Source of the DNA: Anaspis maculata
Taxonomy: Eukaryota > Arthropoda > Insecta > Coleoptera > Scraptiidae
Length of the DNA stretch: 64,000 bases
Assembly: GCA_949128115.1 (NCBI GenBank)
Contig: OX421964.1
Location: 4,650,001-4,714,000, forward strand
Direction of reading: 5' to 3'
Shown one piece after another: positions 2,961 through 45,929 of this stretch. A program made the position numbers and the translations under genes. The notes beneath the pieces are model-generated. The model searched no databases and had not been told where the DNA came from. It worked only from the letters and a program-made list of their open reading frames with translations. Each line of letters opens with the position of its first letter. The stretch's first letter is position 1.

Positions 2961-3002
2961 TTTGCTCCAGACACCTTATTTCACCGGCTCTCTGGCGTTA
3001 AG

Positions 3003-9156: not shown

Positions 9157-9197
<41 letters not shown>

Positions 9198-14577: not shown

Positions 14578-17500
14578 AAGCTTCGTTACAAGAGCAAGGA
14601 CCTCGCAAACCAACAAAAGGAAGGGGTAAGTTCTATTTTTTATTCTATTACATACCTACGTACCCACTTGTTTTCCGTGAAAATAGAAAGAACTTTTTGC
14701 GGACAAAACGAGATATCAGTCACACTTGCCACCAAGAGGACTACTGTTCTGTATCTTGACTATCTCGTATTGTCCGTAATCATAATTATTCAATATTCAT
14801 ACCCAATACAATTCCCGTCGGTACAATGTATTTGTAATAACAGATTTATCGCGAAGCATGCGTATTATCTGGGAAATGGTTGTGGGCAGATAACATAGTG
14901 GGTAGGTGAAGGATAGGGAATGATCGAGATGGAGAACCCAGTCCTCATCGAGATTGATTGTATTGTATAGTCATTTTGTTATTCTCCCAGATAAATTCCC
15001 AGAACCCCAGATAAACTGGAAGGTCCAGAATTCAACTGTTGTCTAGATTTTCACCCACCCTTTACCCTATCAACAACATCCTTGCTTCAGATTTTTGAAA
15101 ACGATATGCCCATTGCTCGTAACACCATATGCTATTATAATGAAAATCGTAAGTCTCGGAATTTTTCTCCGTTAATTGATTTTGACCCCCAGCCCCCTTT
15201 ATAATCACTTTCAATTATTTGATTTAAATTTGTTAAAATTATTACTTCATTACGCTTCTGCTCAGTTCTCATAAGAATCGAAATTTCTGCAATTTCATGT
15301 TATTTTCTAGACTTCGACTCCCAACCCCCTCGACAACCACCCCAATGTACTACTTGGACTGTTCCAGTTACTTTTCCCATGGAAACAATTTCGATTTGAG
15401 CCAGTTTGAGGATAATTAAAAATGTTGAGACAATTCCAAATTTGGACCTTATTGAGCGTGTAGGGGAAAAACTGTTCATAGGAGGGGTCCAATTTTTTTG
15501 GAATATATACACCTATTTCTCGAGTAAGGATCTACAACTCGAAAAAAATCAGCCAAGTTCTCTTCTGTGATGAGCCGCATAAAATTAAAACACACTTGTC
15601 TCGACACTATCACAAAGTCGCAATACCTATAGTGCGCGATCCGTTTGTCATAATGGCTCACAGATCGTTCAATATCCAACACATTTGAATTCATCATTTC
15701 AACTTTTTTCTCTAATTTTCAAGGTAATGTCAAGTCGAGTGTCAAGGCAATGCAACGTCGCCTCGCACGTGTGCAGGAAGAAGTTGATTATCCTGGTAAG
15801 TTTTTTTTTCCATACAACTAAATACATTTTTCGTAATAGTCTAGTGACAACGCTAGCTGGCTTTCTAGTCTTGCAGTTCCAAAAACCAGAAAGGTATCAA
15901 ACATTGCAAGAATTAGAGACCGTCATTTACGTCATCTAGCTCCGTCACTCAACAACTTAGGCCCAGTTGCTCACTTCAAGTTTAACTTCAAACTTGGTTT
16001 GGTTGCCATAGATTTAATTGTTGCAACAATTATTTCCGTAGTAATCAAACCGGGTTTTTTAGCTAAACTTGAAGTGAGCAACCCGGCGTCAGCCAGAAAA
16101 ATTGATATCATTTTGCTGAATGGTTGATAGAATTGAGAAAGAAACCTATTACATTGTTCAGCGAAATCGTTTCGACATTTAAGAGACTGTGCCTCATGTG
16201 CCTCTATGAAAAATGCACTTTTTGAGATTTTGAAATCTGTTTCTTTTTATTGAGAATTGCTGTTAGGATATTGGCATCGTTTTCACGCGTTTCACAAGAA
16301 AAAAACACTGAATCTATGAGTCTTAACCATGTGAGATTAACGGAAAAACGATTCGACCAATGGATGCAGAGAAGCACTTGCAAGGCTCCTTCGCAATAAT
16401 TCCTTTGAAGGGCTGTATCACTGTTGTCACTTACTTCAAAAAAGTTTATCATACTGACTCTTCGGCGACTCTGTGTTCATCCTCGAGCTAACGAACTGAA
16501 CTTAGATAAACTGTGGCGGCTAGCCCCCAAGTGGCTGCTGGGGATAACCACATTATACTTCTAGGCGTTGCGAGCTGAGAAATCTGATTTTGCGGACCTT
16601 AGTCCTGGGAGTCCTAAGGTTCGCAGAATTGCTGGGAATTCGTTATACAAAACTGGAATTCAATCAATCCGTTGCTAGGCCCAAGATCGTGCTAGTTGCC
16701 AACCGCTTTTGGGCGTTGACATGAGAAAACTGATTCTGTAGGTAGTAATCCCTGTAGTCCCTCAACCAATTGAGATTGAAAAAACTTTTCAGCTTTTAAA
16801 GAAATACAGATTGGTAGCTAGCGAACAGACCAAAGAACAGACAAAGATAATTAGCGACTCGAATTTGGGAAAGCTTCAGTGTTGCCAACAGTATCGTATG
16901 ATCCGTTGAAAGATGTGCTGCTCGACCTGATGTGATTCATAAAAAAAACGTCACCATGCGCCGCGCATGCGCCACGATGCGATGAGCCGTAAAGAGGTGA
17001 AAAGTTATTTCTGACCCTCTTGCAGTAACGTTATATCATATTTTGCCAAAGAGAGTTGAGTCATGCAGAAGCAAATTGGATCTGTTTTGCCATATCTTAG
17101 AGACACCATCTATTTAGTATTTATCGCATTTCCTTTGTGGACCAGAAGTTACAAGATATCCAAATTTCTGCCACATTCACCAGGACATGGATTTTCTGAT
17201 GAAATGAGCGGGATCCATTCACTACGCGTTCATCCATCTCTGAAATGTTCAACCGAGTGTTCAACATTATCAAGTGCCTATCTCGGTGCTTATCATTGTT
17301 TCTGAATACTATAGCTCTTGTTTTATTTTCCAGGTTTGGGAGAATTAGAAGGTGAGCTCTGTTCTTTCTATATAACTATAGAAGCACTACAGTAGCAATA
17401 GCACATCTACAAGTAGGGTTTCACTTGAAATGTATAAGGTGGTCGGTTGACTAGCTTTTCAATGTTGAATAAGAATATTGAGATATGATCAATGTTTTAT

Positions 17501-20500
17501 CCATTTTTTTTTTCCCAGAACCCGAGCTAGAACCTGACTTGATGGATGAATCCAAAACCGATGGGGAGAGCGGAACTGAGGAACATCGTGAGTTCTCTGA
17601 ATACATATAACTAAATAGGTTCATTTTCTGTGACAGTCTAGTGGAAAGCTGCGGAGCTAGCTGGCTTTTTAATCTTATAGTTTTGAAAATCAAAGTTGTA
17701 TCAAACATCAAACAGGGTATCACAAAAGGTTAAGGCGGTCATTTTCAGTGGCTTCAGAGATTCCCAATTCTAGATATTTCAGAGGAGCCTATTCGAACTT
17801 CAGCTTAATCGATCCTTCAAGTTATAGAACTTGACATAGTTCAATTGGAAGCTAGACTCCAAGGGGTGTGGAAAGTAAGCGCACCTGTAGTGTACTCCTG
17901 ATCGAATCAGGATCCAAAAAACTCCAGCAACTCTGAGAAAAATTCAGAACACTAGCCATCTGGAAGATTACAATAAAACACCAGTGTAATGTTGACTGCA
18001 AAGAAAATTGGAAAACCTGTGAATGATGTTATATTTGACCTAATATTCGGGCTTTTTAAAAAAAAAAAGGAGGTGGAATGCCCAAAAGCCCCCTGTTGTG
18101 TTTTTGTTGGGCCACCCTGTATAGGAAATTGTTTACACGCCAATTCGCATTATTTCAGAATGAGAGAAATTATTGCATCGCCACATACAGGAAGGGACGG
18201 TGATGGGATAATCAAAACCGCGATATTGGAGTTTATTCGAACGTTGTGGCCGTTGACCATAATAAGAATATATTGTGCTACGGTATTAGGGTTTACCTTG
18301 TTCGAAATTTAACGTGCTGATTTACTTGTAAAAAAACTGCACTTCATTCACTACTACCGATACAACTAAATAACGCACACTATTAATAATCACTCAGGAA
18401 TTTACAATATCGCTTGAGATGTTATCGCCACGGTCGCTCGATTCCAACTCTCTCTGATGCCAGGTCGAGTTCCTCTCTTATAGTGGCATCGATGGTTCTG
18501 GATGCTTCCTGTTTGATCGTTGGAGTTTCCAGCACACAAGGATTCTTCTGGTATCTGCGTCGATAATATATGCGTACTTTCTACGGCACCTCCACCAGAT
18601 GTCTCGACGTGTCGTGACCTACCGCTGCAGTCTCTCGATGCTATCCGAATGCAACGCGGAAATCTAGATTTCTCTGGAAAGAGCCGGGATGGTTGCGAGC
18701 TTCGTAACAATACTTATTATACATGATTGTGTGAATCTGAATATGTACCTATTCAAAACTTGAAGCTCATCTCATGTGGTTCTATTGTATTACGCGCTGA
18801 TCATTTTTTGTGCAACATTCAACTTTTTTATTTGAAGTTCCAGGCGAGGTTCCAGGTTTGACGCATCAACTTGGGAAAGGTGAGTTTAACTCTTTCCATA
18901 TGCTCTTTTTTCCTTAACAATAGCACACCTACAGGGTGTTCTAATGATTAGGAGAAATAAGAGTGGTCGGTCTAGGTTATGCGATAAAACAAAAATACCA
19001 ACAAAAACTCGTCGCGGAAGAAATAACATTCTTTAACACAAATCAATAAAGTTCAGTCCTAACAATTTGATTTCTTCTGTATACTTGAAGATTGATAAGG
19101 TGATTTCCGCGCTTAAGCAAGCGTCAGCTTACATTCCACTGTTAAACAAGATTAAATCATTTTTCTCACCATCTTTTATTTTCAATGTTCTAGAACCTGG
19201 CTTGAAGGATGATGATTACGTGAAAATTCCAAGAAGTTTACTTGCTAGACTTGGTGAGTTGTTCTTATATAACTAGGTTATTTTCCAATGAGTTTGGTTA
19301 CGGAGCTGGTGGCTTTCTGATCTTGCGGTTTTGTAGTTTCGAGAGTCAGAATAAAACAGGTTATTTCAAAAGTTCGATTTTCCAAGAAACATCAAGTCAA
19401 GAAACATCTCGAAGTGTTTACAATGAATTCAAGTTCATTATCAATATTTTCATTGCAAACGGAATTACTGGGACGATTCAGATTTGGATCAATTTCAATG
19501 CAGCTCTGTATTTTGGACATTTGGCTTCACTCGATTTCTACCCCAAGGTTTTCCTACTTCAAGTTTTGGCTTCAACATGAACTTGATATTTTGAAAATCG
19601 GTTGACGGAGAAAAAGTTAACACTGGAATAGCAAAGTAATAATAATATGTTTTGATCACCCTGCATGGTTATAAAACAGATGGGCAAAAAAATCAACAGT
19701 TGGTCTAAGGTAGGTGATGAGGTCTATCCTCATGCATTTAGTGTTGAAATGGATAAGGAAAAATCTTTGTTCAAGCGGGGCTTGGTTGAACGTATCGGAG
19801 TTTTGGGACGTTTTACAAACCATCCTGTGAGCCACCCTGTATGAATTTTATTTGAAGACTCTCCAGATTCATATCTGTAGAATGAATTGTCAAAAAAAAA
19901 GGCTAACGGACAGCGCAAACCAAAATAAAATCGGTCGTGATAAAGAAAATTATCCTTTTTTGAAAAATTGCAAAATTTGTGAGTGTGACACATTTAGTGT
20001 TGCACAGTTTATATCCCGTCCGGTATCTCGCACTTGAACTAAATTAACCGCAAAATGACGATAAAGACAGGCCACGGCGAGGAAACTACATCCCCACATA
20101 CAAAAAGGACCGGAAAAAGACGAATCAAGAGCGCGCTATTTGAGTTTCTTTGAACGTCCTTGTGACCGTTGACAATTATTATGAAAATATACCAACTTAT
20201 ACCGGGTGATCATTTGAAAACTATCCAACTGGAATAACTCCCGATTCCTAGTGAATATTTCTTCGAGAAAAAACAGGTCGATTTTCATATCGAGGGGAAC
20301 ATCAAAAACATACATAGGCAAATTTCTATATCCACCCCCCTCGCCTCCACTCACCCCAACTTTGAAATTTCGGGTGACACTACCTACCTTGCGATACATC
20401 AAATTAAAGAGAAATAAATTTTCTTTCTGGGAAAAATATTTCCAAGATTTTCAACCCCACCCCCTTTTTCCTAAAAATTCTCTGACTGTCCCATTTTATA

Positions 20501-23500
20501 TTCTGGACCCCTCATTTTTTTCTCAATTTAGTCGGCGTCATCCTAAATAGCATCGAAGAAGAAAATTTTCGGTGGGAAAAGTGCTACCCAAATTTACCCC
20601 TTTGCTCTCCCCCACCTTAACTCCCAAATTAAACAAAACACTTCCTACTTTGTGATACATCAAATTGAAGGGAATTGAATTCTCTTTCTGGAAAGAATTT
20701 TTCTGAAATTTCCTCTCCCTCCATCAATAAATTGGTCATTTGGAGTATTCTAGGGGGGAAATGGGGGGCTTTGAAAATTGTGAAAAATCTTTTTCTGGAG
20801 AAGAATTCAATTTTCTTCAATTTGATGTATTACAAAGTGCGTATGGACCGTTTTAATAAGTGCATTATGGGTATATTTGTACAGTCAGTCATCGGTCGGT
20901 ACAGTAGAGACGTTGCCATGGTTCAGGTTCGAGTTGGCGGGAGTTGGGGATTTGATAGATTGATGGAGAAATTCAGTTGCCAAGTTGACAACTCACGTGC
21001 TTGAAAATGTCAAACAATTGCCGATTTCCCCAAAAAAATTGTTTTGCCTCTTCTACGAGGATATCTAGGTAATAATTCGTGTTTTCTCTACAAGTGTCGT
21101 GTTAAAATCGGGCGGCGAAATCGCAGATTGTGTAAGAAGAGGCGATTTGCTTCGGGAAATGTGGTTACATGGGTGTTTTTCACCTACCTCTCTATCAATG
21201 GTCTTGTGGGAACATGAATGTGTCATAAGCAGGCACACCTAAGCAGAACGTAGAAGCACAAACTAGCGTGGAAAGAAAGCACGTGAACGTGGTAAGCAGT
21301 TCGAGCAATGTGACCGAAGGCGAACCTGGGCGAACCCCAAACCATCGTACAATCATTTTCTGTCCATGTCAACTTGACGTAGTTTTACCGGCCGATGACT
21401 GACTGCACCAATATACCCAGAATGCATCTCATTTTGTTCGACTTATTAAAACGGCCCATTGACATTTTAGATTCTTAAGGTCAGGTTGGGGGAGCGAAGG
21501 GGTGAATTCGCTCCCCCCAGCGAGCGAAGGGGTAGCACTTTTTTTAGAGAAAATTTTCTCTTTTGATGCTGTGCAGGATGACGTTGACTGTATTGAAGGG
21601 AAATGGAGGTCAAGAATATCAACTTGGACACTCAGAGAAGTCTAGGAAAAAGGGGGGTGGGGTTGAAAAATTTCAAAATATTCTTTTTAAAAAGAGAATT
21701 CAATTCTCTTTAATTTGATGTATCGCAAGGTAGGCGGTGTTATTTGAAATTTCAAAGTTGGGGTGAGTGGGGGCGAGGGAGCTCAAGATATAAATTCTCC
21801 AACGTAGAGTTCAGATGTCCCCCTCGATATAAAAATCGACCTGTTTTTGCTCGAAGACATTTGCAGTAGGAATCGGGAGATATTGCAGGTGGATAGTTTT
21901 CAAATGATCACCCGGTATAATGCGATGTGTGAATGTATTGAGAACTCCAAGCTTATCTGATGTAAGTCTCTTGTATTGCATGCTGATCATCAATTAATTT
22001 GTGCCATATTTAAAATTCAAATTTCAAATTTCTAGCTTCGCCGCCTCCAGTTCCTGAGGAAGGTGAGTTCTATTCTTTTCATATACTTATTTCTCGTAAC
22101 CAGGTGTGCTAGTGATGAGGAGGAACGTACAGTGGTCGGTGGAGGTTATTCGATGGAAAAAAATCACAACAAGAACTCTTCACGGATGAAGAAACATGAT
22201 AAAATTGAAGCTTGAAAGGTAGTTTATTTACAATCACTATGTTAATTGATTCATTACATACCCTTTAAAAAATTGGGAACCAGCCTCTTGCCGACCTCTC
22301 GGGAAAATGAACAGCTCTGCTAACCAGTATGGATAATAAACACCTGCCTACTTCGCTTTTTAGTTTTGGCAGTAATGGGTGCTTTCCACCTAGACGGTAC
22401 AAATACCACCAGACGGCACATGTTCCATGGTGTGGCACAAAATTTTACGTGATCCAATGAACGGCGCAGAACCGAGTAAAAACACGTAGATGGAAAGCAC
22501 CGTTTGGAACCCGCACATGCGTAAATGGCAGGTGTACCGAACTTGAGGCTAGGTGGAAAGCACGCTTTGTTTGACAGCTCGGACTCGGGTATTTGATTTG
22601 TGGTTTTGAAAGGTTATGTTTTGGGTTATTCTATAATGATGGTGTTTGTTTCTTGTTCTAAACTTTGGAAGTCTGGAACAAAAAACGCCACGAAAATGTG
22701 CAATGAAACGTATTGCCCACCGGCATGGCATAATAATTTGGTTTATTGAATAAATTGCAGTAGGTGGAGGGTAGGTGAAACTATGTGGAAATTACCCCCT
22801 TTGAATTAATATGTATTGCTAGATAGCGCAGTACTCCGCTGGCTTTGATCGAACCGAGGATACCGTAAAGAGATTACCAAGTACGTAAGTGGATACAAAG
22901 AAGGACTTTGTAAAGAATAAAGAATTGGAAATATCCTTTGTTTTTAGTACGGAGTACTCACGAAACATAGCATACCAGGAGTCCTACCTTTTGCGGGAGG
23001 TACTCAGTTTGCGCAGTATTTATAAAATTTTCAATGTTGCTTTTGTAAAGACGTTGGATTTCTTCGCTCATTACCTAACGTTCTCTTTCTTCAAAAAAGT
23101 TTGTAATCTGCCATACTTCGAGATATCAATTTTTTGATTCATTTTCAGAGTTGCCCGAATCATTGAGTACATATAGCTCAAAGTGTTGACGCTTTCTTGT
23201 CTTTGGGCTTTGGCCAACTGACCAAAGTACGCCAGAGGCACATTTCCCGTCAGAGAATGGGCTCCCTTCGCCATTGCCACTCCTTGAACAAGGTGTACGC
23301 TTTTTCGTATCTCGCTCTACTTTTATCTGGGAGCAATTGGCCAGACACATGCTTTGCGGCCAGCCGCAATTCGGGCGTTGTAAGTTCCATGTCACTCTGA
23401 CTATCCATTTTAAAGTTTTGAACTGAACTGGTTCGAAAGAAATATGGAAATTGACAGCAAATTCAAATTTTGTTTTAGAAACACGTCCAATCCCAAGCCT

Positions 23501-24560
23501 ACTTGATTCAATTTTTTGATACGACTGCACAAAAAATAAACCTTCCATAATTCTTAATGTTTAATCGCCAAATATTTTACGAAAATAATTAAATTTTTCG
23601 ATTCTGTGGACTATTAAAGAGAATAAGTACCCATACTTGCTATTTTTTGCCTATAAACCCTGTTTTCAAGATTGGCGCCTACTCACTATTTGAGTATGGA
23701 TGAAAAACACGTGCATAGTCTATCCTTCGATATATCCATAGTAAAATATCTTGGAAATGGCTTGGTTTTATTCATTTATCTATTTTTATTCGCAAAATTC
23801 GTAGGAATAAATTTACGTTCTATACTGAGTGTGAATGAATTGATTTCTTTTGTAAAATATCCATAGCTTTTCAGTTTCGTTGACCGTTATGATGAAAAAC
23901 CAATTTTATAATAACTTTCAACAAACGTAAAGTACATGATTGTGAATAAAATAGTATACGAACTACGGTAGTAAGCTTCATTACAGCCTCGAGCCCTACC
24001 TTACCTCGGCGCTTTGCGCCTCGGTTATGTATCTTGGCTCTCGCCTGTTATATGACGCTTCCTACCTGAGTATGTAATATACTATTCCACGCTTGGATGC
24101 GTGAGTAGTCGAGAAATCAAATGACCTGTTAGTAAACCGGCGCTAAAGCACTAGGGCAGAACCAGGAACCACTGGTGGAACCAAAATTCTCAAAACTGAC
24201 CTCTGTGCCGTAAGAATTTATAATTTGGTCTTCAGAAGTTGAGACGCCTTGCTCTTGCTGCTATCTCTCTTTTGCGAGGTAGATCTGAAAAATTGTGATT
24301 TAAAGCTTGGCTGAGCAAAACCACAATGGATTATTGGATTTTTCCCGGCTCTTGGCTTTCTTGAATTGAAAAACACTGTCCAAGTAAATTTGTCCAAAGT
24401 GACAAATGTACGGAAGCCGTTCATTAGGCGTCGACTAATATTGTAATTTTCAATAAAATACAATTATTGTTCTTACCATCTTTTATTTTCAATTTTCCAG
24501 AACCTGACTTGGTGGATGATGGTTACGTGAAAATTCCAACAAGCGTACTTGCTAGTGTTG
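14578..24560 (+). CDS. Gene 1 exons A1/B1-A4/B4: four tandem two-exon units
   Basis: Short A exons (14578, 17334, 18844, 22036) alternate with longer B exons (15724, 17519, 19194, 24501). Introns after all B exons are homologous: GT donor, then a CTA(G)..GCTAG(C)TGGC..CTTGCAG block. Introns after A exons share GTGAGTTCTA..TTC..ATA and an AACAATAGCACA.CTACA block. B3 and B4 encode near-identical peptides (EPGLKDDDYVKIPRSLLARL and EPDLVDDGYVKIPTSVLASV). B2 starts EPELEPDLMDE and B1 is diverged and basic. A exons encode 6-16 codons (GLGELE in A2, ASPPPVPEE in A4). The unit arose by repeated intragenic duplication followed by fast exon divergence; the introns are better conserved than the exons. 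Confidence 0.75.
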
Positions 24561-26129
24561 GTGAGTTGTTCCCATCATAGAATAACTAGGTCAACTTTCC
24601 AATAATGTTCAGTTACGGAGCTAGTGGCTCTTCAATCTTGCAGTTTTGAGAACGAGAACCAGAATCAAGCAGGCTATTTCAAGAGTTATGAGCCTTCATT
24701 TCCGTTAGCTAGCTCCATAGCTCGACAAATTATCCAGGAATTAAGATTCCTTATTCTGGATGGTTGATGTCTTGGCACGGGGGGAAAATAGTAACAGCAC
24801 CATTTTCACGCGTTGACACACTGGAAAAATCGCATTGTTTTTTAAATTTTTTTACTGACTGAAAATTAGTTATTTGTACTGGTCGTTATTCAACTTGAAT
24901 CTATTACTGGAACGAATTCCAATTACCTCTCCGAGTTTTGCTTCTCCTGTATCGATTTTTTACCCTTGCTTTTGGCTAAAGCTCCATTTCTCTTCCGTAT
25001 GCATTTTTGGCACATGTCGCTACCAACTTTGAACTTCGAAGATTTATTTTAATTTAACTTTCTTCAATTTGAAGAAATCGTGACTTCAAATCTGACAGCT
25101 TACCATCACAGGTAGAGTCGACACTTTGGAACAATTTTAGAGTGAGGCCTTTTCTTCAAGACCCCTACAACCCACAAGTTTAAACCGCGACTGTTTTTGA
25201 TCTTGTCGCGGTTCCGGTTTTTGAAATCCTATCTTGTCAAATCTTTCTTTGCCTGGAAGCTTCGCTCTACTTTTGTTCGATCACTAGTTCTGGCCTCAAT
25301 TATTCATAACAAGTCCCTTGCATACAATCAAACATGGATACAATTCGTGGATTAATTTTATTCACAATAGGCAGAATGGGCGTTTATTTTATCCAGGTTC
25401 GTCAACCCTATTGCAGCAGGGCGTTTGGTACTCTCACATTTCTTATTTTCTTGACGTTTGCCGACTGCTCCAGAGTGGGGTTCTATCTGATGAGGTGCCT
25501 AGTGTAGTTGTTGTCCAACTGTGTACATAACTTTTTCCAATTTTATTTCTTGTACAATTTGCCAAAATAGTGTCAAAAAACAATGAACTTGATTGTTTAA
25601 CTGACAGATTGTACAAGAAGTTGTACAAGAAATTGTGTAGTGTAATATAGCTATAAGATCACTTTTTCACAATGTTTCTGTATTCCCATTATAGATTATA
25701 CCGAGGGGTTGACCACCTAGTAAATGTGGTGTACAAGCTCGAGTAAATGTTGGTAAATGTTTGGTAAATGTGGTAAATATTTGGTAAATGTTGGTAAATG
25801 TTGGTAAATGTTGGTAAATGTTGGTAAATGTAGTAAATATTTGGTAAATGTGGTAAATATTTGGTAAATGTTAGTAAATGTGGTAAATATTTGGTAAATG
25901 TTGGTAAATATTTGGTAAATGTTTGTAAATGTGGTAAATGTTTGGTAAATTTCAGTGAATAACAGTCAATTTTAGTGAATGTTTAGCGGATTTTTATAAA
26001 TGCTTAGTAAATTTTGATGCATATTTGTAAGTGTTTGGTCAATGTTGTAGTTTTTCAGTTATTCCAAGATAATTTTTAGCGCATTTTCGTAAGAAAATGA
26101 CGCTCATATGGCCGGTTTGTCTGTCTGCC

Positions 26130-26160
<31 letters not shown>

Positions 26161-29100
26161 GTAGAAATTGAGAAGTTGTACTCCTCCTCGGGGATTTGAG
26201 TTAGAACCCTGGAACTTTTTTTGAATGATAGCTGATGTCTTCAAGGATGACCAATGGGCATTATTTTTTCAACCATACATAGTTATCATTATTATTATCA
26301 AAAAACAAAGATTCACTGTGCACTTCTGAGAAGTTGAACTCCTCCTCGGGAAATGAACCTAGAGCCCTGGAACTTCTTCCTATGAATAGCTTAGGTTTTC
26401 AAGGGTGGCCAGTGGGCAGATTGGGTTTCATGGTTGCGCCGCCATCTTGGCCGTCATATTGAAATTTCTCACTGGTGGAACGATTTTCATGAAACTTCGA
26501 ACTTATTCTTGTCTCGTATGAACATTCTTATTTTTGAATTAAATTTCATAATTCCATCGCCATCTTGGCCGCCATATTAAAATCTCTTATTAGTGGAACG
26601 ATTGTCATCAAACTTGGAACTTATTCTTGCCTTGTATGAACATTTTTATTTTCAAGCTGATTTTCATGATTCCGCCGCCATCTTGGCCGCCATATTGGAA
26701 TTTCTTATTAGTGGAACGATTTTCATGGAACTTAGAACTTACCCTTGTTACGTGTGCATGATCATTCTCATTTTCAAGCTAAATTTCATGATTCCGCCGC
26801 CATATTGAAATCTCTTAGTAGTGGAACGATTGTCATAAAGCTTGGAACTTATTCTTGTTTCGTATGAACATTCTTATTTTCAAACTAAATTTCATTATTC
26901 CGCCGCCATCTTGGAATCTTTTTATAGTGGAACGATTTTCATGGAACTTAGAACTTACCCTTGTTACGTGTGATCATTCTCATTTTCTAGTTAGAATTCA
27001 TGATTTCACCGCCATATTGGAATCTCTTATTAGTGGAACGATTGACATCAAACTTGGAACTTATTCTTGTCTTGTATGAACATTCTCGAGTTTTCACCTT
27101 CGAACAAGTCGTCGAATCTCTAATTTTTCTTTATCAGATGAATTCTCTATCAAGTCCTTGCCCTGGCTGCTGAAATCAAATGTTTATGATCGAGTTCATG
27201 ACCAACCACAAATTAAAATTCCCAAAATATTCTCCTCTTTAGTCCTAGTCGATAAGTTCAGATAAAGAGTTCTTGTAAACTCTAGAATTTCATGCAAATC
27301 TTCATTTTACTTTCCCAACCCGTCTCCTCACTCGAAAGAGAAAGTTATGTGATGGTGCAGGGAAAACGTTCTGACACGATAGCTGATGCCGAACCGTTGA
27401 CCCGATCGACTTGAAATTTGATATACGCATACAGACAGGACCTTGCCGTCCAATGAGCTGATTAATTTTTGGTTGTCATCTGTGAAACGGAAGTGTCATT
27501 ATCAAAGAACGACAGAGCTTGTTTACGCGAGGCTTAGCAGAGATTTTAACAGTGGTTAGTTAGGAGTGTTTACGCGCCGAATGGCTTTGAGTATTTTTGG
27601 GAAAATCAAATAATTTTCTGAACCAATTGTCAATTTCCTGTGAATGTATTTTAAAATTAAAAATTAAAAAAAAATTAATGTTTTCCTGCTTCTCGGCTTA
27701 TCAGCGCCATAGGAGTTTTTGCGCCTTTTATTGATAACAGTGAATTATTACATAGGAATTACAATATACGCAAATTTTTTAACAAACACAAAACATCCAT
27801 GACTTACCGGGATTCGAACCCGCGCCATCCGCACCACAGACGGCAGACGACCGACTGTGCTACGGGGCCGTCTTCCTGTGAATGTATTAAAATCTACCTT
27901 TCGAACTCCAACTTTATACCTGAAGAAACACATCGAACAAAAATTTCCAAGGGTTTCTGGATTCTGGTCGGGAAAGTTTTGTGTCGCCCACAACAGATTT
28001 TTCAAATTCCCAAATGATACGTTTTGTAGTCGATTCCATGAAATTTTAGAAATTTAGAATGTTTTTGATAAATGTTGGAATTGTTGTGTTCATTTCCCGT
28101 TCAATAGATGAGAAAAAGTCAACTACTTATCACGTCTGTGGTTTTCATTTTCTCACAGAAAATTCTCTGACGAGTTCCAATTTCCAATGATGTGTAGTCA
28201 AAAACTCTACCCTAGACACTGGTAACAGGTAACACAAAATTACTCGGGAGACAAGTAGCTGACTTAATCAGTACGACGATATTTTGTTCGTTAGGTACCT
28301 ATTTTCCAGTTGGTATTCCGGTGATTATTAGTAATTGGGTAGTATTGATAGAGAATAAGCATAAGCATTTGCTTGAATTCTATAGGCGTTGCCAGTGATA
28401 GTCTGCTTAGCAACTCCTCAAATATCTGAGCAAGTGCTTATGCTTATTTCATATTATTACCTACTACCCATTATTGTTTTCGTACATTTCAGTACTTAGG
28501 TAGTTCATCTTATGCTTTTTACTAGTGGATTTCGTTTATAAATGTGGTAAATGTTTAGTAAATGTTGGTAAATGTAGTAAATATTTGGTAAATGTTGGTA
28601 AATGTGGTAAATATTTGGTAAATGTGGGTAAATGTGGTAAATGTTTGGTAAATATTAGTAAATGTGGTAAATGTTTGGTAAATGTTGGTAAATGTTAGTA
28701 AATGTGGGTAAATATTTAGTAAATGTAGTAAATGTTTGGTAAATTTTGTAAATTTTGTAAATGGTGTACACAAATTTCTTGGGTGGTCAACCCCTCGGAT
28801 TATACTGATTCTTTAGTGGAAGAAAATACAAGTACATCAATCAGATATTATTCAAACTTGGCAATCGCCACTCACATTGTCGTTATCTTTGCCATTTCAG
28901 ACGTCACACTGGAAAAGTGGTGCCAAAAAACATTTTTCAGAATATCTTTGCTCCAAGTCGCGTAATATGGGAAGGTTCACAAGCAGGTGGGGCGATGGAG
29001 CTCAAATTCTTGTCAGTTTGAAATCCTCCGCCAACTAAATATGTGCAAATCACAACAAAATTAATTGTTCATTGATAACCCTCAATAGTAATTGTTGACC

Positions 29101-32100
29101 ACATAATACATAATTATAATGAATCTGCATAAATCGTATAGTAAACGTACAGGTTATCCTGATTGAATGTGCTGGATCCATCCACCACGCGTCCATTGAC
29201 CTCCTGATGTTCGACATTCGGTGCAACAGCATTATGTGGAGATCATTGTTTTCACCATCTTCAATTTTCAGACAGGACAGCGCCAAACTATCCACCTACT
29301 GTTGATGAGGCACCGATGCAAACCCCAGAACGCGGATTTGGTGAGTTCTTTTCATAAACTTAACTACACTAAACTTGAGCTATGCTATGAGCTAACTTTC
29401 CTCCTCTAAGCGGGCTGTGGTCTGGTCATCGGCAGGCAAACGAGGCTGATTTTGGCCAGGTCACAGCCTGCCTAGAGGAGGAAAGTTTTTAATCATACGG
29501 TATATTATCAACCTATACCAGATAACTATCTTACTCCCAATTTTCCAGGCGATATGAACTATCCGCATCCCATGCCGAATCGCTTCCCGAACCATCAGGG
29601 AAGCCAAAATGGTGAGTTTTTTATGCAACAACCTGGTAACAAAAATACAGTACTTGGAAGCTTGATGGATTTTTTCGCTCGCGATAATAACTTTTCTGTA
29701 TTGATCAATTGTCTTGAACTCTTTCACGGAAGTTCAACAAAAACTACGGAAAAGCTGCAGCAACTCGTTTGTTTAATGAACAATTCCCATATAATATGAG
29801 TGTACCTCTATAATAGCTATGGTAGATAACCCTATTTCTCCCAATTTTCTAGGCGATAATATGAACTATCCACCTCCCATGCAAAACTATCCGCCTCCCA
29901 TGATGACGAATCGCCATCCAGACCAAGGAAGCCAAAATGGTGAGTTTTTTTCTACAACAGGCTGTAACAAAAGATACAGTCCTTGGAATCTTCATGAGTT
30001 TTTTCTTGATTACTTTTTTTATAAGGAGTATTGATCCATTGTCTCGATCTTTTCAACGGGAGAACCATGAAAACTGCGGACAAGTTGCTTTTGAAAGATA
30101 TCTGGCTGGCGTTTTTTCCAGTAACAGTAATATAATGATAGGGACTTTACATATAGGTATATTCATTTTATTACTTATTATCTTGGCCACTTATAATTCG
30201 AAATTGATTGCTATCTGCAATCAAGTTGCATGATTATTTTTATTCAACGATCGAAAAATAACCACAATTTGACGATATTGATATGAGTAAGTAGTTTGTT
30301 TCGATGCTTGAAAAATCATTCGCGTCTGATGATGAGTATAACTTGATATAATATGTAGGGGAACCCGGGGCGGCACGGGGTACTTAACATTCAAATGCAA
30401 GTCGAGTCTAACCTAAGCTGAACCTTTAAACTTCGCTAGCGATAATTGATTGTATAACTCGTGGGGCACGCGCTAGGGTGCTCTGTGCACAAGTTACACA
30501 CTTCGAATTAAAAGAATTAAGAACAACGCAATGAAATCAACGAGCGCATCTATTCATCTATTTGTTACAACAACCCGGATAACGCCATCATTCTTATTTC
30601 TTATTCTTAATCTCACTTATAACGAACTTCATCGACAACCTTCTTACACTAAAGTCACTAAAATAGTCTTGACAGTTCTGACAGCCGGTATTGTTGGCTG
30701 CCTACTCCCCATCCGTTATAATTGCCTGAAGTATTCGTTACTGTGTGGAGCTGGAAAAGGCATGATAAATAAGATACAGAATATTTCCTGACTCGGTGCG
30801 TTTTGCCCCGGTTTGCCTTTTACTGGGGGCAAAATGGGGTATCACACTCATAACATATCTAGGAATGAGGTCAGAAGAGAATGTTAGTAAGAATATACTT
30901 GTTAAATATCAGATTGCACAAAAATCGACCAGGGCAGAACGAAGTATTTCATCTCGTTTCGCCCCGTTCTGCCCCAGGGCATATATTTTAGGTTAGAGAC
31001 CGGGTTAGTAATTTGTGTTTATGATTCCAAAACTACAATAACGTCAAAGACGAACAAAAACTCTGATTATTTCATAGTAAAATATTTAAATTTTATAATT
31101 TACCTATTTATTTATTTATTCCATCGACTTATTCAACGAGGCGACATTCAGCTATCAGCTGCCCTACCATGCAACCTCGGGGACAAAACAAAATATCCAT
31201 GGATGTAGCGGGATTTTAACCCGCACAGTGCAGCGCGAATAGGTCAGCTTGCCATCACCTGTACCACTTGGTCACGACCGCTCTAAATTGATCTCAGTTG
31301 AGAAAAAAAGTTTACTTTGCCTCAAAAGTCCAACAAAATTATAACGCAACTCAAAAATCGGCAATTTGTATGAGCTGGGTGTATGAAGGGCGCCACTTTG
31401 CTTACTGACGAGACATCCGGATAGTATAATATTACTTCACTTAAAATTCCTTCGATAGAGGCCTCTCTGAGAAATCAAAAGGAGGTACCCTGTTGTGCCC
31501 CAATCCCCGTTTTGCCCCGGGTTCCCCTGTATTACAATATGAACCTATACTGGATAATCATCTTTTTTTCTATTTTCTAGGCGACATGAACTATCCGCCT
31601 CCCATGTCGAACGACTCGCCCCCCATGCCGAATCGCTTTCCTAACCAAGGAAGCCAAAATGGTGAGTTTTTTGTGGAATAGCCTGGAGTGAAAAATACAG
31701 CCCTCAGAAGCATGAAGCAAGAACTTGGTTCCTCCTTAATAATTTTCCTAACAAGAATCGTTGATCAGTTGTATTGATCTCTTTTACGGAAGGACAAAAA
31801 GAATTGGAAACTAGTTGCTTTTGGATGATGTCTGACATTTTCCAGTTACAGTGATAATGGAGAAAATATGTAGCCCATAACCCAATACTTGCGCTAGTAA
31901 GCCTGGTATTCGAAATTGATCTTGCTATTAATATACATCATAGTTTTTATTCAACTACTGAAAAAGAACCAAAATTAGACAAAATCAATTTTATCAAGCA
32001 ATTCGTTTGAATGCTCAGTTAATATTATCAGTTGTTAACAATTCCCATATAATATGAGTATACCTCTATTACATAATAGGTATATTAGTATCTATATGAA

Positions 32101-35100
32101 CCTATACAGAATAACGATCTTTCTACCAATTTTCTAGACGATATGAACTATCCGCCGCCCATGCAAAACTATCCACATCCCATGCCGAATAGCCATCCAG
32201 ACCATGGAAGACAAAATGGTGAGTTTTTATACAACAACCTGTAACAAAAAATACATCTCTTGAAATCTTCATGGGCTTTTTCTCATCAACTTTTCTCATA
32301 AGAAGTATTGATCCATTGACCATTGTCTCATTCTTTTTCACGGAAGGACCACGAAAACTGTTGTTCTTGCTCTTGAATAATATCTGGCGTATTTTTCTGA
32401 AACAGAGATAACAATAGGGTATATATTCATTTCATCACCTGTTGCCTATTATTTTCATTCAACTAGGTACCTACCAAGAAAGTACCACAATTGGACGATA
32501 TTAATTGGAGCGAATAGGTAGTTTGTTTTGATGTTTGAAAAGTCATCTGCGTCTGATATGAGTATGAGCTTCATTATGATAGGTATAAATTACAATATGA
32601 ACCCATACTAGGATTACTGGATAATCTTTTCCCTCCAATTTTCTAGGCGACATGAACTATCCGCCTTCCATGTCAAACTATTCGCCTTCGATGCCGGATC
32701 ACTTTCGTAACCAAGGAAGCCAAAATGGTGAGTTTTTCATGCAACAACCGGTAATGAAAAATACAGTTCTTGAAAGCATGATGAAAAAACCTGGTTTCTC
32801 CTTGAAATTTTCCTCACAAGAATTATTGATAAGTTGTTGTGATCTTTCCTACGGAACGACAAAGAGAATTGGGGACAAGTTGCTTTTGAAAGATGTCTGG
32901 TGTATTCTCCAGAGACAAAGATAATGGGGATGATATCCATTTTCGAACCTATCAGCTGCGCCACTGGATATTTGAAATTGATCTTGCCATCAATATAGAT
33001 GATTATTTTCATTCAACCACCAATAAAGAACTTGAGCAAGCTGCTACACAATCTTCAACCTTCAGCTGTAATTACCCCCCTCTCCCTCCCTTCCTCCCTT
33101 GTGGACCTTTCATCTACGTTGCTCACTTTATTCCTGAGTTGTCCTTCCTTTCATCCAGGCCCTTGCCTTTACCCAGGAGAACGTAACTTTGGGGATGATG
33201 CTGTAATTGAAAAGAAACACGGATAGACAGCAAATGAAACACATTCTTATTTAAATCATTAGCAAAATACAACTGAATAAGGTTCTTTTCTCAAAACACC
33301 TCACAAAATCAGACAATTAGACTGAGAGATGGACAGAATGACATGACATGGATGAAACACAAAATACGAACTAAAATAAAACAAGAAAAATTATGTTCAC
33401 AGATAAAATACGAAAAATAGAAATGTAACAAAAGCAACAAAAGGAAACACAACAACAGATGTATGTAACACAACAATAAGGAATCAAAAATGTCAAGCTC
33501 TCAGCAAAAAGCAGAAAAAAGTGAAGAAATTGACGTATTTGCTGACAGGCACACATGGGAAGAACACGTCAAAGGAACCCCTGCGTATTGCCCGATTGTG
33601 TGCTGAAGTATGTAACAAAATTTTCTGGGCAAAAACATGCGAAAATTAGTCATGGAGCCAGGGTAAATTGCTCACTTCAACTTCACGATTTATGAACAAG
33701 AGCACACACCTTATTTCTCTCAGAAGCAGAAGAACACACTTCTTTTTTTCATTTCGTACTGCCGAACAAGTATTGCTTGATGAGGTGGGGCCCGATCCTG
33801 TTGCAACCACACTTGCTGATTGGGAATATCTGGATCATTCTCGTTTAGGTAGACGAATGCTAGAGCTGGAACTCTGTCTCCACTGAACATTTCCAGTTTT
33901 CAACCGTGGTGAGATTCTTGTAGGAAGATGAGTCCAATAGTTTGTTCCCCGGTGATCCCAAGCCATCTGTTTGATTTCTGCAGCCATTGCGTGTGGTTTG
34001 TTCTTATTCAGTGGGGGTCTTCGGATGCCCAATATCTACAATTTTGTCTATTGACCTCACCGTCCAGTGTGAATGTTGTTTTTGTAAGGAAAAAGAACAA
34101 GATGGCGAGAGAAAATTAGATTTCTGTCAATTCTATCCACCATATTATATCTTCAGAAATTTGCACCATATTATAGTCTCGCAAAACTGACATTTCTGTC
34201 AGGATCGTCCTCAAGTAGCTCTTGTACGTAACGTAGTAGTTCATACGGATGCTTCCTCTCCTCCTTATTTTTAGCACGGTTGTGTGGCTAGCCTCGACAT
34301 CTCAAGTACCTACCTTATCGTGCTGGTGTAACGGGGCGGTCCTTGTTAGATAAAAGAACCTATATTTCGATTTTCTTGTCAATCCTGAGTTGTCAATATC
34401 TTGTTAAAATCTTGACTTGCTCATTTTCTCGGAAATGTCTTTCAATTCGACTTACTGTCGTTTGGAAGATCTGAGATAGATCAGAATGTCTTGGCTGAAT
34501 AGAAGGGCCACCTCAGCTTGAGTTCTGGTTCTATTCGCAAATCTGATGACCATCAGAACCTTGATCTTAAGAGCTTCAGACAGGTTGTTCTTTTTTGCCT
34601 AAGGTATATTCTTGGGGTAACATTACGGGTGGGTAAGTATCTAGGGATAGTATTACGAGCTCTCATCAGTTCAAACAAAAAACAGAAAGTAAGAATTATG
34701 CAAAAAAGGGAAACATTCTTTTGAAGAGTCGTCGAAAAGTTATTGTCGAACGAAATGGACGATCTTTTCTGACTATTCAAAAGGTGAACAAAGTTGGATC
34801 ACATCAGCTACACTAACAATGATTGATTTTCTGCTAACATTCTCCTCGTGTGGCAGAACTTCAGATAGGCTGCTAGGTTGGATAGAGAATTGAACGAAAA
34901 TAAAAGTGTCTTTTTCAATTTATTGGACAGTTAAAAGTTTCCACGCTGTATATGATGGGTATTTTTATGATATAAACCTATACTGGCTAACCATCTTTCT
35001 CTCAATTTTCCAGATGATATGACGCAAAACTATCCAAATCCCTTGCCGAATCGCCTACCAAACCAAGAAACTCAAACTGGTAAGTCTTTTATTACAACCT

Positions 35101-37799
35101 GTAACAAAAAATTACAGCCAATGGAAGCTTGATGGAAACGCTTGGTTTTCCGCAATAGCTTTCCCAATAACAATTATTGATCAGTTGTCTTGATCTTTTT
35201 AACAGGACAAAAATTAGAAAGTGACAAGTGGGGTTTTTGCAAAAAACGCCTCAATTTTTGACGCGTTAACACATCGTCATTGCTGGACTTCTGATCCAGG
35301 GAGTTCAGAAACCGCTTCAAGATCAGGCTTCATGAATAGTTCATTAGAATTAAAAAAAAAAATCACAAAAACCAGGGATCGGTGGAACTTAGCACCTAAT
35401 GTGCACCAGCTGTGAAAAAGTACCTAATTGAAATTGAAAACAAAATCTCGTCAACGGGATGGATTGCTGGAAGATGGATCTGAGAAACTGTGGAAACAAA
35501 TTGAAAATCGGTTGTGCCAATCTAAAGTAACGTCATTTTGAATAAGGGCAAAATTCTTGATATCGTCACTCCAGTTGTTAAGCAGTTTAGATAACAACCT
35601 TTCTTCCAATTTTTTAGGTGATAGAAGGATGTCAAACTATCCGCCTCCCACGCCAAATCTCGCACCAAACCCAGGAAGGCAACCTGGTGAGTTTTTTGTA
35701 TGAAAAAGGTGACGAAAAAACAGCCTCTGGAAGTGGAATGAAAAAACTTGGTTGTACCGCAATAACTTTTCTAATTTGATAGATCAACCAGTTGACTTCT
35801 ACGAAAGCATAAGAAAATGCAAACAAATAGCTTTTTAGAGATATTTAGCGTAGTTTTCAGTAACAGATATGATGGGGACTATATTCAATTTACCACCTAC
35901 TATCTGCGGTACTACTGCTACTAGTGAGCCGGAACCGATGTCATCTTGTCATTAATATGCATGATTATTTCCATCCAACAACCAAGGAAAAACAAAAATT
36001 TGATGGGACTGATTGAAGCAAGGCATCCTCCAAATGTTTGAGAAACAGTTCGCGTATAATATAGTTTTCATTTAATTTTATTATCATACAGGGTGTCTTA
36101 AAAGTATCTAAGTTCAAAGTCCAAAGCGGTATATAGAATCCACTCAAGAACACTAGAAAAATATTGGAAAAAATCGATACATTTATTTTTAAAGATATTG
36201 GGGGTCATGACCCTTCTCCTTGTCATAGAAAAATTTTCAGTGGCGTTTTTGAAAAAAAATAAATTCTTCTGACTCATGAGTATCCCTTTATATCAAATAG
36301 AATTTCAGTGCACACCCGGTGACTGATAATTTTCGCTGATTAGTCTATCTTAAACAGCTCCCCAGAATCACTTTGACTGACAGAATGATGGTCACTATTT
36401 TTTTTAATTTTTTTTTTCGTCTTCTTGAGTGGGTTTTCATGATATCGTTCCGGATTTGGAAAGCCAGACTTCTGAGACACGCTGTATTATGATGATATGT
36501 GAATACTTATACCAAATAACCAACTTTTTTCAATTTTTAGTTGGTGTGATGCCAGAATATAGGCCTGGTGGAAGCGACCCAGGTGAGTTTTTTTTTTAAC
36601 AACCTGTAACAAGAGATACAATCTTATAATTGGATTTTCCGCAATAGCTCTCTTTGTAACTATCATCGATGTTTTCCACGAGAGGATACATAATTGAGAA
36701 TGAACTGCTTTTCGAAGATATCTGGCAGATTTTCCATTACCGGAGATCATGGGGAAGATAACTGTTTCACCTCCCAATATCTGCGCCCCTAGTAATTCAA
36801 AACTGATTTTATCTTCTGAAAAAACCCCAGCTATCTTTTCAAACCCCTGAATGGGTAGACAACTCATTATACTTCAATTTAATTCAACTTATTTGAATCA
36901 AATCACGTTTCCCACTTTTAGAACCGCTTGGCCGATAATCATCGCGGGAGCCTTTTTCCAAAGGCTAACGTTCTTTTTGGGCTATGGTTCTGTTTTGCCC
37001 GTTTAGAAGGGATTGGAAAGGCCAGCCATGGCCTTTGTGGAAGCTTTAAACCTGTTTTCGCCATGAATTGCCTCCAACGCTCAGAAAGATTCCCGTGATC
37101 GAGAGTGCCTATAACCGGGAATATTAAATCAAATTTCACCCTTCCAGAAACTTTCGAACCGACGTTGTACGCGGAACAATAATTACTCAAGTCAAGGTAC
37201 AAACTTAATTGTGAAAAACTTTTTGAGCACGCGGTATACGCGCTCGTTCGTTGTTGTTTACTAGTACGTGGCAGATGCCGCAGTTAGGAGAAACAAAACG
37301 CAGAGAATTGACTATACAGAGTGTTCGCCAAAAAGCCGATGCGGAGAGGCGTCAAAATAATTATTACCCTAACACTAAATAGCCGCCGTCTACACCATAC
37401 CTGTTCGAGCCCTAATAACAATTTATTTGGTTAGGTTGTAAAATATTGGAGTTCCCAGTTTTGGAATCTACGGGAAAAAAATTCGAGAAAGTCTTTTCTT
37501 TTCAAATTGTCTCAAAGGGGAAACCTCCAGTATGGAGAAAATTCTCGCTTGATCACCTTGTATCTTGCCTACTCACACTTCTCAAAACAATTGAGGGATC
37601 CTTGATGCGAAGTTGATCTTTCACAACTTGAAGTACCTACAAAAATAAAAGCCAATGAATTTTTCATCAATTCTTATAGGTCTTGTCGGAATATTTCACT
37701 TTCAGGACTTTTCTATTTATTTTCAATACGTACCTACAATGATTCAAATCTTTCTGTTCAGAACTCTTCAACCAAAACCAGATGAGAAACTACCGGTAG
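14578..37799 (+). CDS. Microexon gene 1: putative secreted or effector-like repeat protein (5' end missing)
   Basis: Seventeen internal exons, all multiples of 3 and all in phase 1-1: 14578-14625, 15724-15795, 17334-17351, 17519-17587, 18844-18879, 19194-19253, 22036-22062, 24501-24560, 29272-29340, 29549-29611, 29853-29939, 31581-31661, 32138-32218, 32647-32727, 35014-35079, 35618-35686, 36541-36582. A terminal exon starts at 37762 (stop 37797-37799 in the phase-1 frame). Nearly all sites are strong: pyrimidine tract plus YAG, and GTGAGT or GTAAG. Exons 2-4 encode basic then acidic segments. Exons 10-16 encode a Pro/Asn/Met-rich repeat. There are no cysteines and no known domain. Serial phase-1 microexons are described for aphid bicycle-type salivary effectors, but the Cys-Tyr-Cys motif is absent, so only the architecture is shared. 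The signal-peptide exon must lie upstream or was missed. Expression and secretion are inferred. Confidence 0.75.
15961..16086. mobile_element. Small hairpin MITE in gene 1 intron
   Basis: About 125 bp with inverted ends: GTTGCTCACTTCAAGTTTA near the left and TAAACTTGAAGTGAGCAAC near the right. The motif TTGCTCACTTCAA recurs as a fragment near 33668. Confidence 0.75.
17711..18122. mobile_element. Fold-back or MITE-like element with ACAGGGT ends in gene 1 intron
   Basis: Left ACAGGGTATCACAAAAGG and right TTTTGTTGGGCCACCCTGT are inverted. Sequence after it (about 18130-18270, GTGGCCGTTGACC block) resembles about 20050-20190, indicating a dispersed repeat. Confidence 0.5.
19640..20195. repeat. 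Dispersed repeat also present at about 38930-39230
   Basis: Both copies carry AAAACAGATGGGCAA, a GGGGCTTGGTTGAACG block, CACCCTGTATGA, and GGCTAACGGACAGCG. The family is unidentified and has no intact open frame. Confidence 0.65.
20200..21917. mobile_element. TACCGGGTGATCA fold-back element, copy 1, with a nested MITE
   Basis: Ends ATACCGGGTGATCATTTGAA and TTCAAATGATCACCCGGTAT are inverted. Further inward, CTCCCGATTCC and GGAATCGGGAG also pair, and the halves are imperfect inverted copies (CCCCCACC/GGTGGGG tracts, a TTTGATGTAT..ACAAAGT block). It lies in the intron between exons B3 and A4 of gene 1. A separate 0.6-kb inverted-repeat element sits in the middle. Confidence 0.8.
20844..21457. 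mobile_element. MITE nested in the fold-back element
   Basis: Inverted ends GGACCGTTTTAATAAGTGCA and its partner ACTTATTAAAACGGCC, with further pairing of TACAGTCAGTCATCGG with CCGATGACTGACTGCA. No open frame of note. Confidence 0.75.
22380..22562. mobile_element. Small MITE with GTGCTTTCCACCTAG ends
   Basis: About 183 bp. The left GTGCTTTCCACCTAG and right CTAGGTGGAAAGCAC are perfect inverted repeats. An internal GTAGATGGAAAGCACC is a partial extra end. It lies in the intron between exons A4 and B4. Confidence 0.75.
22563..24500. other. Intron A4-B4 of gene 1, no supported gene
   Basis: A 140-codon frame with an ATG lies on the minus strand at 23126-23548, but no family is recognised and no splice context supports it. 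The last about 40 bp before exon B4 match the corresponding end of the A3-B3 intron (CACCATCTTTTATTTTCAAT). Confidence 0.5.
26430..27085 (+). repeat. About 110-bp tandem repeat within the 3.1-kb element
   Basis: Five to six imperfect units, each with TTAGTGGAACGATT, a CTTGGAACTTATTCTTG or CTTAGAACTTACCCTTG variant, and the CCGCCATCTTGG..GCCATATT segment. Confidence 0.75.
27651..27874 (-). mobile_element. tRNA-derived SINE, minus strand
   Basis: On the minus strand a tRNA-like head (GGCCCCGTAGCACAGTCGGT, with B-box GGGTTCGAATCCC) starts near 27870. A direct repeat CCTGTGAATGTATT at 27637-27650 and 27875-27888 flanks the unit as a target duplication. The tRNA-like part cannot form a perfect cloverleaf acceptor stem with its 3' side, so it is a SINE head rather than a tRNA gene. 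Confidence 0.75.
29272..36582 (+). CDS. Gene 1 exons 9-17: array of Pro/Asn/Met repeat exons
   Basis: Exon 9 (29272) encodes DRTAPNYPPTVDEAP. Exons 10-14 encode variants of GDMNYPPPM.N..PPMPN, ending in NQGSQN or a close form, each followed by GTGAGTTTTT. Exons 15 and 16 (35014, 35618) are shorter and diverged (DDMTQNYPNPLPN; GDRRMSNYPPPTPN). Exon 17 (36541) encodes VGVMPEYRPGGSDP. The downstream introns repeat too: each has a CAACAACCTGTAAC..AAATACAG block, a CTTGGAAGC.TGATGGA block and a TTGATC block, so exon plus intron (about 500 bp) was duplicated as a unit. In-frame exon counts could vary between alleles or transcripts without breaking the frame. Confidence 0.8.
29394..29490. repeat. 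97-nt strong hairpin in gene 1 intron
   Basis: The left stem AACTTTCCTCCTCTAAGCGG continues to about 29428 and pairs with 29454-29490 (GGCCAGGTCACAGCCTGCCT and onward), giving about 34 bp with roughly five mismatches, several compatible with G-U pairing. It is either a tiny MITE or a pre-miRNA-like hairpin. Confidence 0.6.
30356..31530. mobile_element. 1.2-kb DNA transposon with GGGGAACCCGGGGC ends
   Basis: Left TAGGGGAACCCGGGGCGGCA and right GCCCCGGGTTCCCCTGTA are inverted. Interior GC-rich patches (TTGCCCCGGTTTGCC; TCGCCCCGTTCTGCCCC) echo the ends. It lies in the intron between exons 29853 and 31581. No transposase is recognisable. Confidence 0.7.
31195..31285 (-). mobile_element. tRNA-like SINE head, minus strand
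   Basis: On the minus strand GAGCGGTCGTGACCAAGTGG followed by a degraded B box (CGGGTTAAAATCCCGC) resembles a tRNA-derived SINE promoter. It lies inside the 1.2-kb transposon. Confidence 0.55.
33690..34580 (-). pseudogene. Decayed mariner/Tc-like transposase in gene 1 intron
   Basis: Minus-strand fragments in broken frames, in order: an N-terminal HTH region near 34560-34400 (TQAEVALLF, then TTVSRIERHFREN), a central FTLDGEVNRQNCRYWASEDP near 34070-34010, and VWLQQDRAPPHQAILVRQY near 33820-33760, which corresponds to the second catalytic Asp motif QQDGAPPH. Frameshifts and stops separate them, so it is an old dead copy of a DD(E/D) transposon. Confidence 0.75.
36091..36485. mobile_element. 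ACAGGGTGTCTTA-ended MITE in gene 1 intron
   Basis: Left ACAGGGTGTCTTAAAAG and right CTGAGACACGCTGT are imperfect inverted ends enclosing about 390 bp without a gene. Confidence 0.5.
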
Positions 37800-45855: not shown

Positions 45856-45929
45856 ATTTCAAAATTTGGATAACTAGTTAGTAGGTATGGCGGCAGTTGA
45901 GGCAGACGTTTCTAGGGACTTTTATCTGG

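Follow-up and report, generated by a model that had tools for sequence, protein, structure and literature searches.

The window analysed here is a stretch of 64,000 nucleotides (nt) whose positions 1-64000 correspond to C4:4650001-4714000, on one contig of a genome of 757.8 Mb in 50 contigs. It carries on its + strand a run of seventeen very short internal exons which, judged by homology with the flanking DNA, is the 3' part of a giant gene, W, one of at least three related giant genes, here called U, W and D, that stand head to tail. Seven-digit positions below refer to contig C4 and all others to the window.

Phase-1 microexons of gene W

The initial annotation of this DNA had proposed a run of 17 or more consecutive phase-1 microexons. 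When we scanned the sequence with generic splice-site matrices, all 17 internal exons (18-87 nt, positions 14578-36582) were recovered, every one with a length divisible by three, an open phase 1 and an intact GT-AG at its boundaries. Phase 1 is the sole open phase in nine of them; in the other eight the sequence does not force the phase, because other phases are open there too. The last base of the exon is G in 16 cases and C in one, so that no stop codon is possible in any junction codon, which rules out one of the two results that the initial annotation had named as refuting it.

Between 14 and 38 kb of the window, at a score cut of 15, the scan gives 18 symmetric phase-1 candidates on the + strand, next to five in phase 0 and five in phase 2; on the - strand the same scan gives two in phase 1, seven in phase 0 and two in phase 2. 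In 40 order-1 shuffles of this region the number of phase-1 candidates averaged 0.9 and reached 3 at most. Controls from the same genome, three unrelated stretches of 10 kb each, held 3, 1 and 0 candidates on the + strand and 1, 0 and 1 on the - strand, and 20 stretches around the array held 0-10 (mean 4.0) on the + strand and 0-3 on the - strand. The content of guanine plus cytosine (GC) is 49.5% in the exons and 37.8% in the introns.

We assigned the exons to families from their introns and not from the exons themselves, comparing 220 nt past each donor and 160 nt ahead of each acceptor. Three intron-homology families were found: A (exons at 17334, 18838, 22036 and 29272), B (15724, 17519, 19194 and 24501) and C (eight copies, from 29549 to 36541). 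Fourteen of the 17 exons are placed firmly (z >= 7 to another member) and one, S, stands alone; the remaining two, A1 and A4, are less firm, and profile scores cannot decide their placement because both exons helped to build the profile. A second comparison again brought out the C units, as well as several of the A and B pairs. Along gene W the families follow the order B-AB-AB-AB-A-C(x8), and in the window no further A, B or C exon was found at a profile E <= 0.001, apart from the stretch 57689-57849. The exons of the window, with the coding end of the gene, are as follows.

14578..14625, + strand: exon S, 48 nt, phase 1; the sole window exon outside A, B and C; a similar stretch lies at C4:4649094-4649318
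15724..15795, + strand: exon B0, 72 nt, phase 1; downstream intron z 18 to B1 and 17 to B3
17334..17351, + strand: exon A1, 18 nt, phase 1; less firm in A, upstream intron z 13 to A4, downstream z 4 to A2
17519..17587, + strand: exon B1, 69 nt, phase 1
18838..18879, + strand: exon A2, 42 nt, phase 1; z 26 and 14 to A3; an alternative acceptor at 18844, 6 nt off, leaves the phase unchanged
19194..19253, + strand: exon B2, 60 nt, phase 1; z 36 to B3
22036..22062, + strand: exon A3, 27 nt, phase 1
24501..24560, + strand: exon B3, 60 nt, phase 1
29272..29340, + strand: exon A4, 69 nt, phase 1; less firm in A, upstream z 13 to A1 and 4 to A2; gene U counterpart at C4:4568765
29549..29611, + strand: exon C1, 63 nt, phase 1, of the NYPxPM type
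29853..29939, + strand: exon C2, 87 nt, phase 1
31581..31661, + strand: exon C3, 81 nt, phase 1
32138..32218, + strand: exon C4, 81 nt, phase 1
32647..32727, + strand: exon C5, 81 nt, phase 1
35014..35079, + strand: exon C6, 66 nt, phase 1
35618..35686, + strand: exon C7, 69 nt, phase 1
36541..36582, + strand: exon C8, 42 nt, phase 1, the most divergent C exon; gene U counterpart at C4:4604013
37762..37800, + strand: terminal coding exon of gene W; stop codon TAG at 37798-37800, with AATAAA at 37927

On this comparison of introns the exons are descendants by tandem duplication of exon-intron units, and the homology of the introns rules out an independent origin of the 17 exons. Repeated duplication of phase-1 units would account for their common phase; only exons with equal phase at both ends insert in frame, so growth by duplication demands a common phase. 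The order in time appears to be the A-B pair first and C later. The earlier statement that chance cannot give such a run is right, while its count of coincidences needs lowering: since three ancestral units account by duplication for most exons, the independent exons number about four and not 17.

The gene array and its ends

Sequence like exon C1, introns included, also occurs at C4:4570303-4596217, and matches beyond C4:4.57-4.69 Mb are just 30-35 bp long. We added the flanks C4:4540001-4650000 and C4:4714001-4784000 (244 kb with the window) and then 10 kb on each side (264 kb). Profiles of A, B, C and S match 94 places in the 244 kb (E <= 0.01), all 94 on the + strand; 18 of these matches fall on the 17 window exons from which the profiles were built, one of these exons being matched twice. 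Across the 264 kb, the + strand yields 98 non-overlapping symmetric exons in phase 1, against 73 in phase 0 and 49 in phase 2, and the - strand yields 12, 19 and 14, respectively, counts to be read with the fact that short exons are frequently open in more than one phase.

Gene U has candidate exons from C4:4546174, perhaps from C4:4538626, and 43 profile matches, 30 of them of type C. Its terminal exon and 3' flank (C4:4607265-4607641) are homologous to those of gene W (79% over 405 columns); it ends near C4:4607350, about 3.4 kb ahead of W. From the exon list that we propose, gene W would extend over C4:4610719-4687800, about 77 kb, with 32-33 exons. Nine of these are candidate phase-1 microexons between the start of W and the window, among which the donors at C4:4639346 and C4:4649798 are weak (about 4 bits); with them and the 5' end upstream of the window, the list of the initial annotation, real in all its members, proves incomplete.

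Gene D starts after a gap of 2.5 kb, at window position 40280, and its candidate exons reach C4:4782943, with none in the next 10 kb. It includes 14 exon-intron units in two blocks 8.7 kb apart (C4:4716829-4730348), with 10 of the 13 spacings at 407-413 bp and with 351-nt stretches that are 70-95% identical; the exon called best is 36 nt long in 13 units and longer in the remaining one. The exons of gene D in the window are listed below.

40280..40354, + strand: exon 1, hydrophobic leader; the start codon of gene W exon 1 aligns with the second ATG here, 40310
40443..40485, + strand: exon 2, phase 0 to 1
40779..40830, + strand: exon 3, phase 1 to 2
41164..41233, + strand: exon 4, phase 2 to 0
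41421..41519, + strand: exon 5, phase 0 to 0
42988..43159, + strand: exon 6, phase 0 to 1; its acceptor is weak (score 2.3) and its boundary uncertain
57730..57762, + strand: A-family phase-1 exon, probably of gene D; profile E 1.3e-8, downstream intron z 16 to A2

A series homologous to the first exons of gene D lies at C4:4610689-4615138, past the end of U and ahead of W's first microexons, and around exons 1-2 the two genes have 73% DNA identity over 690 columns. By homology and position we assign gene W exon 1 to this series: it opens with an ATG at C4:4610719, some 39 kb before the window begins, and a hydrophobic run comes next. In W, exons 2, 4 and 5 retain the splice sites and phases seen in D, and their length changes are in frame. 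A first exon of W inside the window was considered and rejected, as the start of W lies upstream of it; ahead of 14578 in the window no exon was found that begins strongly hydrophobic and has a phase-1 donor, a filter that would miss the leader exons, which proved to end in phase 0. The leader of D and its homologue at the start of W, both judged from hydropathy only, are the reason for reading the product as secreted, in line with the original proposal.

Constraint, composition and possible role

In the seven C copies that remain when the divergent C8 is omitted, the pooled proportions of synonymous (pS) and nonsynonymous (pN) differences are 0.365 and 0.203 when the proposed frame is read; the next frame gives 0.282 and 0.222, and the third 0.208 and 0.238. 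The C introns diverge by 0.20-0.45 from one another. Under simulated intron-like decay all seven C exons would stay intact with a probability of 2e-7, or 0.002 when frameshifts are ignored. These figures are rough, as the copies were treated as independent; within that limit the comparison of frames shows that the reading frame is under constraint and that the C copies are moderately constrained.

Between the genes, U and W give a pS of 0.23 and a pN of 0.14 (51 codons in four exon pairs picked as the clearest counterparts), and D and W give 0.24 and 0.18 (91 codons, from five of the six leading exons), so that pN/pS between neighbouring genes is about 0.6-0.75. This divergence is in keeping with weak constraint; it fits fast evolution, as had been suggested for the gene, though within it the C copies are moderately constrained, and does not prove positive selection. 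One B pair has a pN of 0.18 above a pS of 0.08, on 19 codons, which offer too few sites for a claim of positive selection.

The 17 window exons encode 19.2% proline, 9.5% asparagine and 6.4% methionine, and in 328 whole codons there is no cysteine, as the initial annotation had said. Among the 98 phase-1 candidates on the + strand of the 264 kb, proline makes up 19.9% and seven contain cysteine; at least one of these seven is misphased, the candidate at C4:4613754 being W exon 5, which is really in phase 0. No C exon has a proline-free run of more than 10 residues, and B0 and B1 have runs of 22 and 17. A loose V/K-x-I/V-P pattern, drawn after inspection, occurs in eight of the 10 B-type exons compared. 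Ten of the 17 exon peptides were scanned against Pfam with no match above the cut-off (one below it, E 0.17), and the eight that were scanned of the 46 listed open reading frames (ORFs) of the window likewise gave none; a PDB sequence search with one exon peptide gave nothing at E <= 10, and the protein database held no candidate for a 107-residue read-through ORF around exon C1. In our reading the products are repeat proteins that are secreted and for the most part unfolded: each gene most likely encodes a leader-bearing, cysteine-poor, proline-rich repeat protein.

We consider it likely, on homology, exon phase and codon comparison together, that the locus is an array of giant genes, with W spanning about 77 kb, that encode secreted proline-rich proteins and have grown by the copying of exon-intron units. 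A few ancestral exons with phase-1 introns on both sides would have given rise to all the microexons. Such exons are frame-neutral, and their gain or loss would leave the reading frame unbroken; unequal crossing-over within introns would copy entire exon-intron units, the A-B pair, then C, and in gene D the unit with the 36-nt exon, of which 14 are present. The protein repeats could thereby be lengthened, shortened and shuffled quickly. The exons would be spliced into one transcript, and the product may be a gland product, a flexible repeat protein working outside the cell. Saliva is a first and tentative guess at its source, supposing a sap-feeder, which we put a little below an even chance.

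Several observations weigh against this explanation. One control stretch, with three candidates, equals some stretches of the array, and the profiles include the splice consensus. The A matches assigned to gene D have weak E values (1e-2 to 2e-9), and the exons between 4.610 and 4.650 Mb are joined to those of the window by order, strand and homology. An 11-kb palindromic element separates the first exons of gene D from the later ones, and neither a 5' leader of gene U nor a 3' end of gene D was found in the 264 kb fetched. The first five or six exons depart from the phase-1 pattern. In W, exon 3 lacks the acceptor AG of D (C4:4611314), whose place might be taken by an in-phase AG lying 15 nt further on, and for exon 6 (about C4:4615000) no clear acceptor is seen; with these acceptor losses the 5' part of W is possibly spliced otherwise or damaged.

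The same array, grown in the same way, could alternatively serve a structural secretion (cuticle, egg coat, wax or a gel-saliva matrix) whose mechanics would depend on the number of repeats, and not a plant-directed agent. The low-complexity repeats of proline, asparagine, methionine and tyrosine, a repeat copy number free to vary and the lack of above-cut-off Pfam matches among the 10 exon peptides would suit such a role, but the acidic A and B modules, with a V-x-I-P-like motif that recurs across genes (a pattern recognised post hoc), look like more than filler, and we think this role possible but on the unlikely side.

The initial annotation had also matched the architecture to the bicycle genes of aphids, and had proposed a gene-structure classifier as the check. 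We ran the published bicycle classifier, and it rejects membership: the window part scores 0.001-0.192 over 20 assumed combinations of first exon and gene length, and the inferred whole gene W, from which the two upstream exons with weak donors were omitted, scores 1e-9 with exon 6 and 6e-7 without it, against a cut-off of 0.72. A distant kinship with bicycle or megacycle genes (of aphids, phylloxerans and scale insects, encoding salivary effectors on saposin-like folds), beyond recognition by sequence, is a rival explanation. It could draw on the many small exons, all 17 in the window starting at codon position 2 as in bicycle genes, on the leader in D with its homologue in W, on rapid change, and on the size, leader and growth by internal duplication of megacycle genes. 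The Cys-Tyr-Cys motif is absent from the 17 exons, and it is not present in all bicycle proteins; those described in the part of the literature covered here have saposin-like helical folds with or without cysteines (PMC13041983). Set against kinship are the classifier scores and the high proline content, with C exons that have no long proline-free runs, unlike four-helix saposin-like domains (the runs in B0 and B1 are longer). Nor does base composition point to aphids: GC is 39.4% in the window and 38.5% in the 264 kb, nearer the 38.2-39.6% given for Bemisia whiteflies than the 31.4% of an adelgid that the source calls comparable with aphids. Psyllids may fit as well, given assembly filters of 0.3-0.4 and 0.3-0.45 for GC. 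Base composition is a hint to the host and does not identify it; an insect, probably a hemipteran, is our working guess. In the sections of PMC9168663 cited here no bicycle genes are reported among the sampled whiteflies, psyllids and planthoppers. We regard such kinship as improbable.

A close likeness is the megacycle gene, about 100 kb long and with 118 exons in one aphid species (Stern and Han 2022, PMC9168663). Like the array it is a huge, leader-bearing gene with small exons of equal phase and internal tandem duplications, and duplication of this kind is present in W. According to the same part of that report, megacycle is single-copy in most aphids that have it, with three paralogs in two species, and was not found in the non-aphids studied. 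The array differs, as far as can be said without sequence comparison, in its at least three tandem genes, its proline-rich repeats and its negative classifier result; megacycle genes are recognised by more than 100 microexons and about 2000 residues, W has 32-33 proposed exons, and U and D are incomplete. The micro-exon genes (MEGs) of Schistosoma share symmetric short exons and secreted products with the array, but in the sections of the source that we cite microexons of 6-36 bp form about 80% of their coding region (PMC5825161), whereas just two of the 17 window exons, 45 of 1035 nt, are that short, and the array does not qualify as a MEG.

Growth in frame by duplication of exons between phase-1 introns also characterises elastin-type genes, which are built of class 1-1 exons. 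They belong to another lineage and are likened here in mode of growth, without sequence comparison.

It is very improbable that W is a graveyard of exons, a former gene now decaying whose phase persists because the copies are recent: the missing acceptors at exons 3 and 6 and the repeat-crowded introns of W would fit such decay, but all 17 exons are open with GT-AG intact although the C introns differ by 20-45%, constraint is specific to the proposed frame, and simulated neutral survival is 2e-7 to 0.002.

The part of the initial annotation that fared best is the idea of a distinct family with the same gene-structure logic. We see about even chances that U, W and D represent an undescribed family of giant microexon genes, tandemly arranged and leader-bearing, whose insect host lies beyond the range known for bicycle genes, and that this family reached the same phase-1 architecture independently. 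No earlier description of such a gene array was found in the open-licence papers searched. If the reading of an independent family is true, a phase-1 microexon structure would be a recurrent route to fast-changing secreted proteins through frame-neutral duplication of units, and such a structure by itself would be no sign of common descent; the case for bicycle homology between distantly related insects has leaned mostly on gene structure, and the array would be a caution for arguments of this type. Duplication seems to have been caught at several ages, in the A-B units, the C units and the closely similar 410-bp units of gene D, which would offer a mechanism for such genes and a natural experiment on changing exon number and content in a secreted repeat protein.

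Repeats and mobile elements around the exons

The palindromic element within gene D occupies window positions 45880-57086. It has 5426-nt arms with 16 mismatches, a 355-nt spacer and a likely 7-bp target duplication, CTAGTTA, which makes a genuine insertion more probable than a fold-back created by the assembly. Its spacer contains, on the - strand at 51311-51373, a stretch of 21 residues like the peptide of exon B0 (57% identity, E 0.002, uncorrected for 21 queries). This is the best ungapped six-frame match to that peptide in the window after B0 itself; it may be a copy of the B0 exon carried by a mobile element, or chance.

A dispersed inverted-repeat family, seen at 20198-21918 and 43482-44564 and with four copies in the window, has ends close to TACCGGGTGATCATTTGAAAACTATCC. 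An exact search of bacterial and archaeal and of viral contigs with one repeat sequence, from which near-genome records were possibly excluded, gave no match.

Upstream of the exons, a 9.6-kb element (266-9862) has long inverted ends, in pieces of 753 nt and 702 nt, and a 6-bp flanking repeat, CGCTTC; the ORFs scanned inside it gave no Pfam match. Its long ends and 6-bp duplication may be likened to those of Maverick/Polinton elements. Between this element and exon S lies a fold-back repeat (11025-13256) with arms of about 1 kb that are 85% identical. Towards the other end of the window, an ORF of 345 residues at 61410-62447 matches two relatives from the protein database at 40-41% identity, and one of these carries a reverse-transcriptase domain (PF00078).
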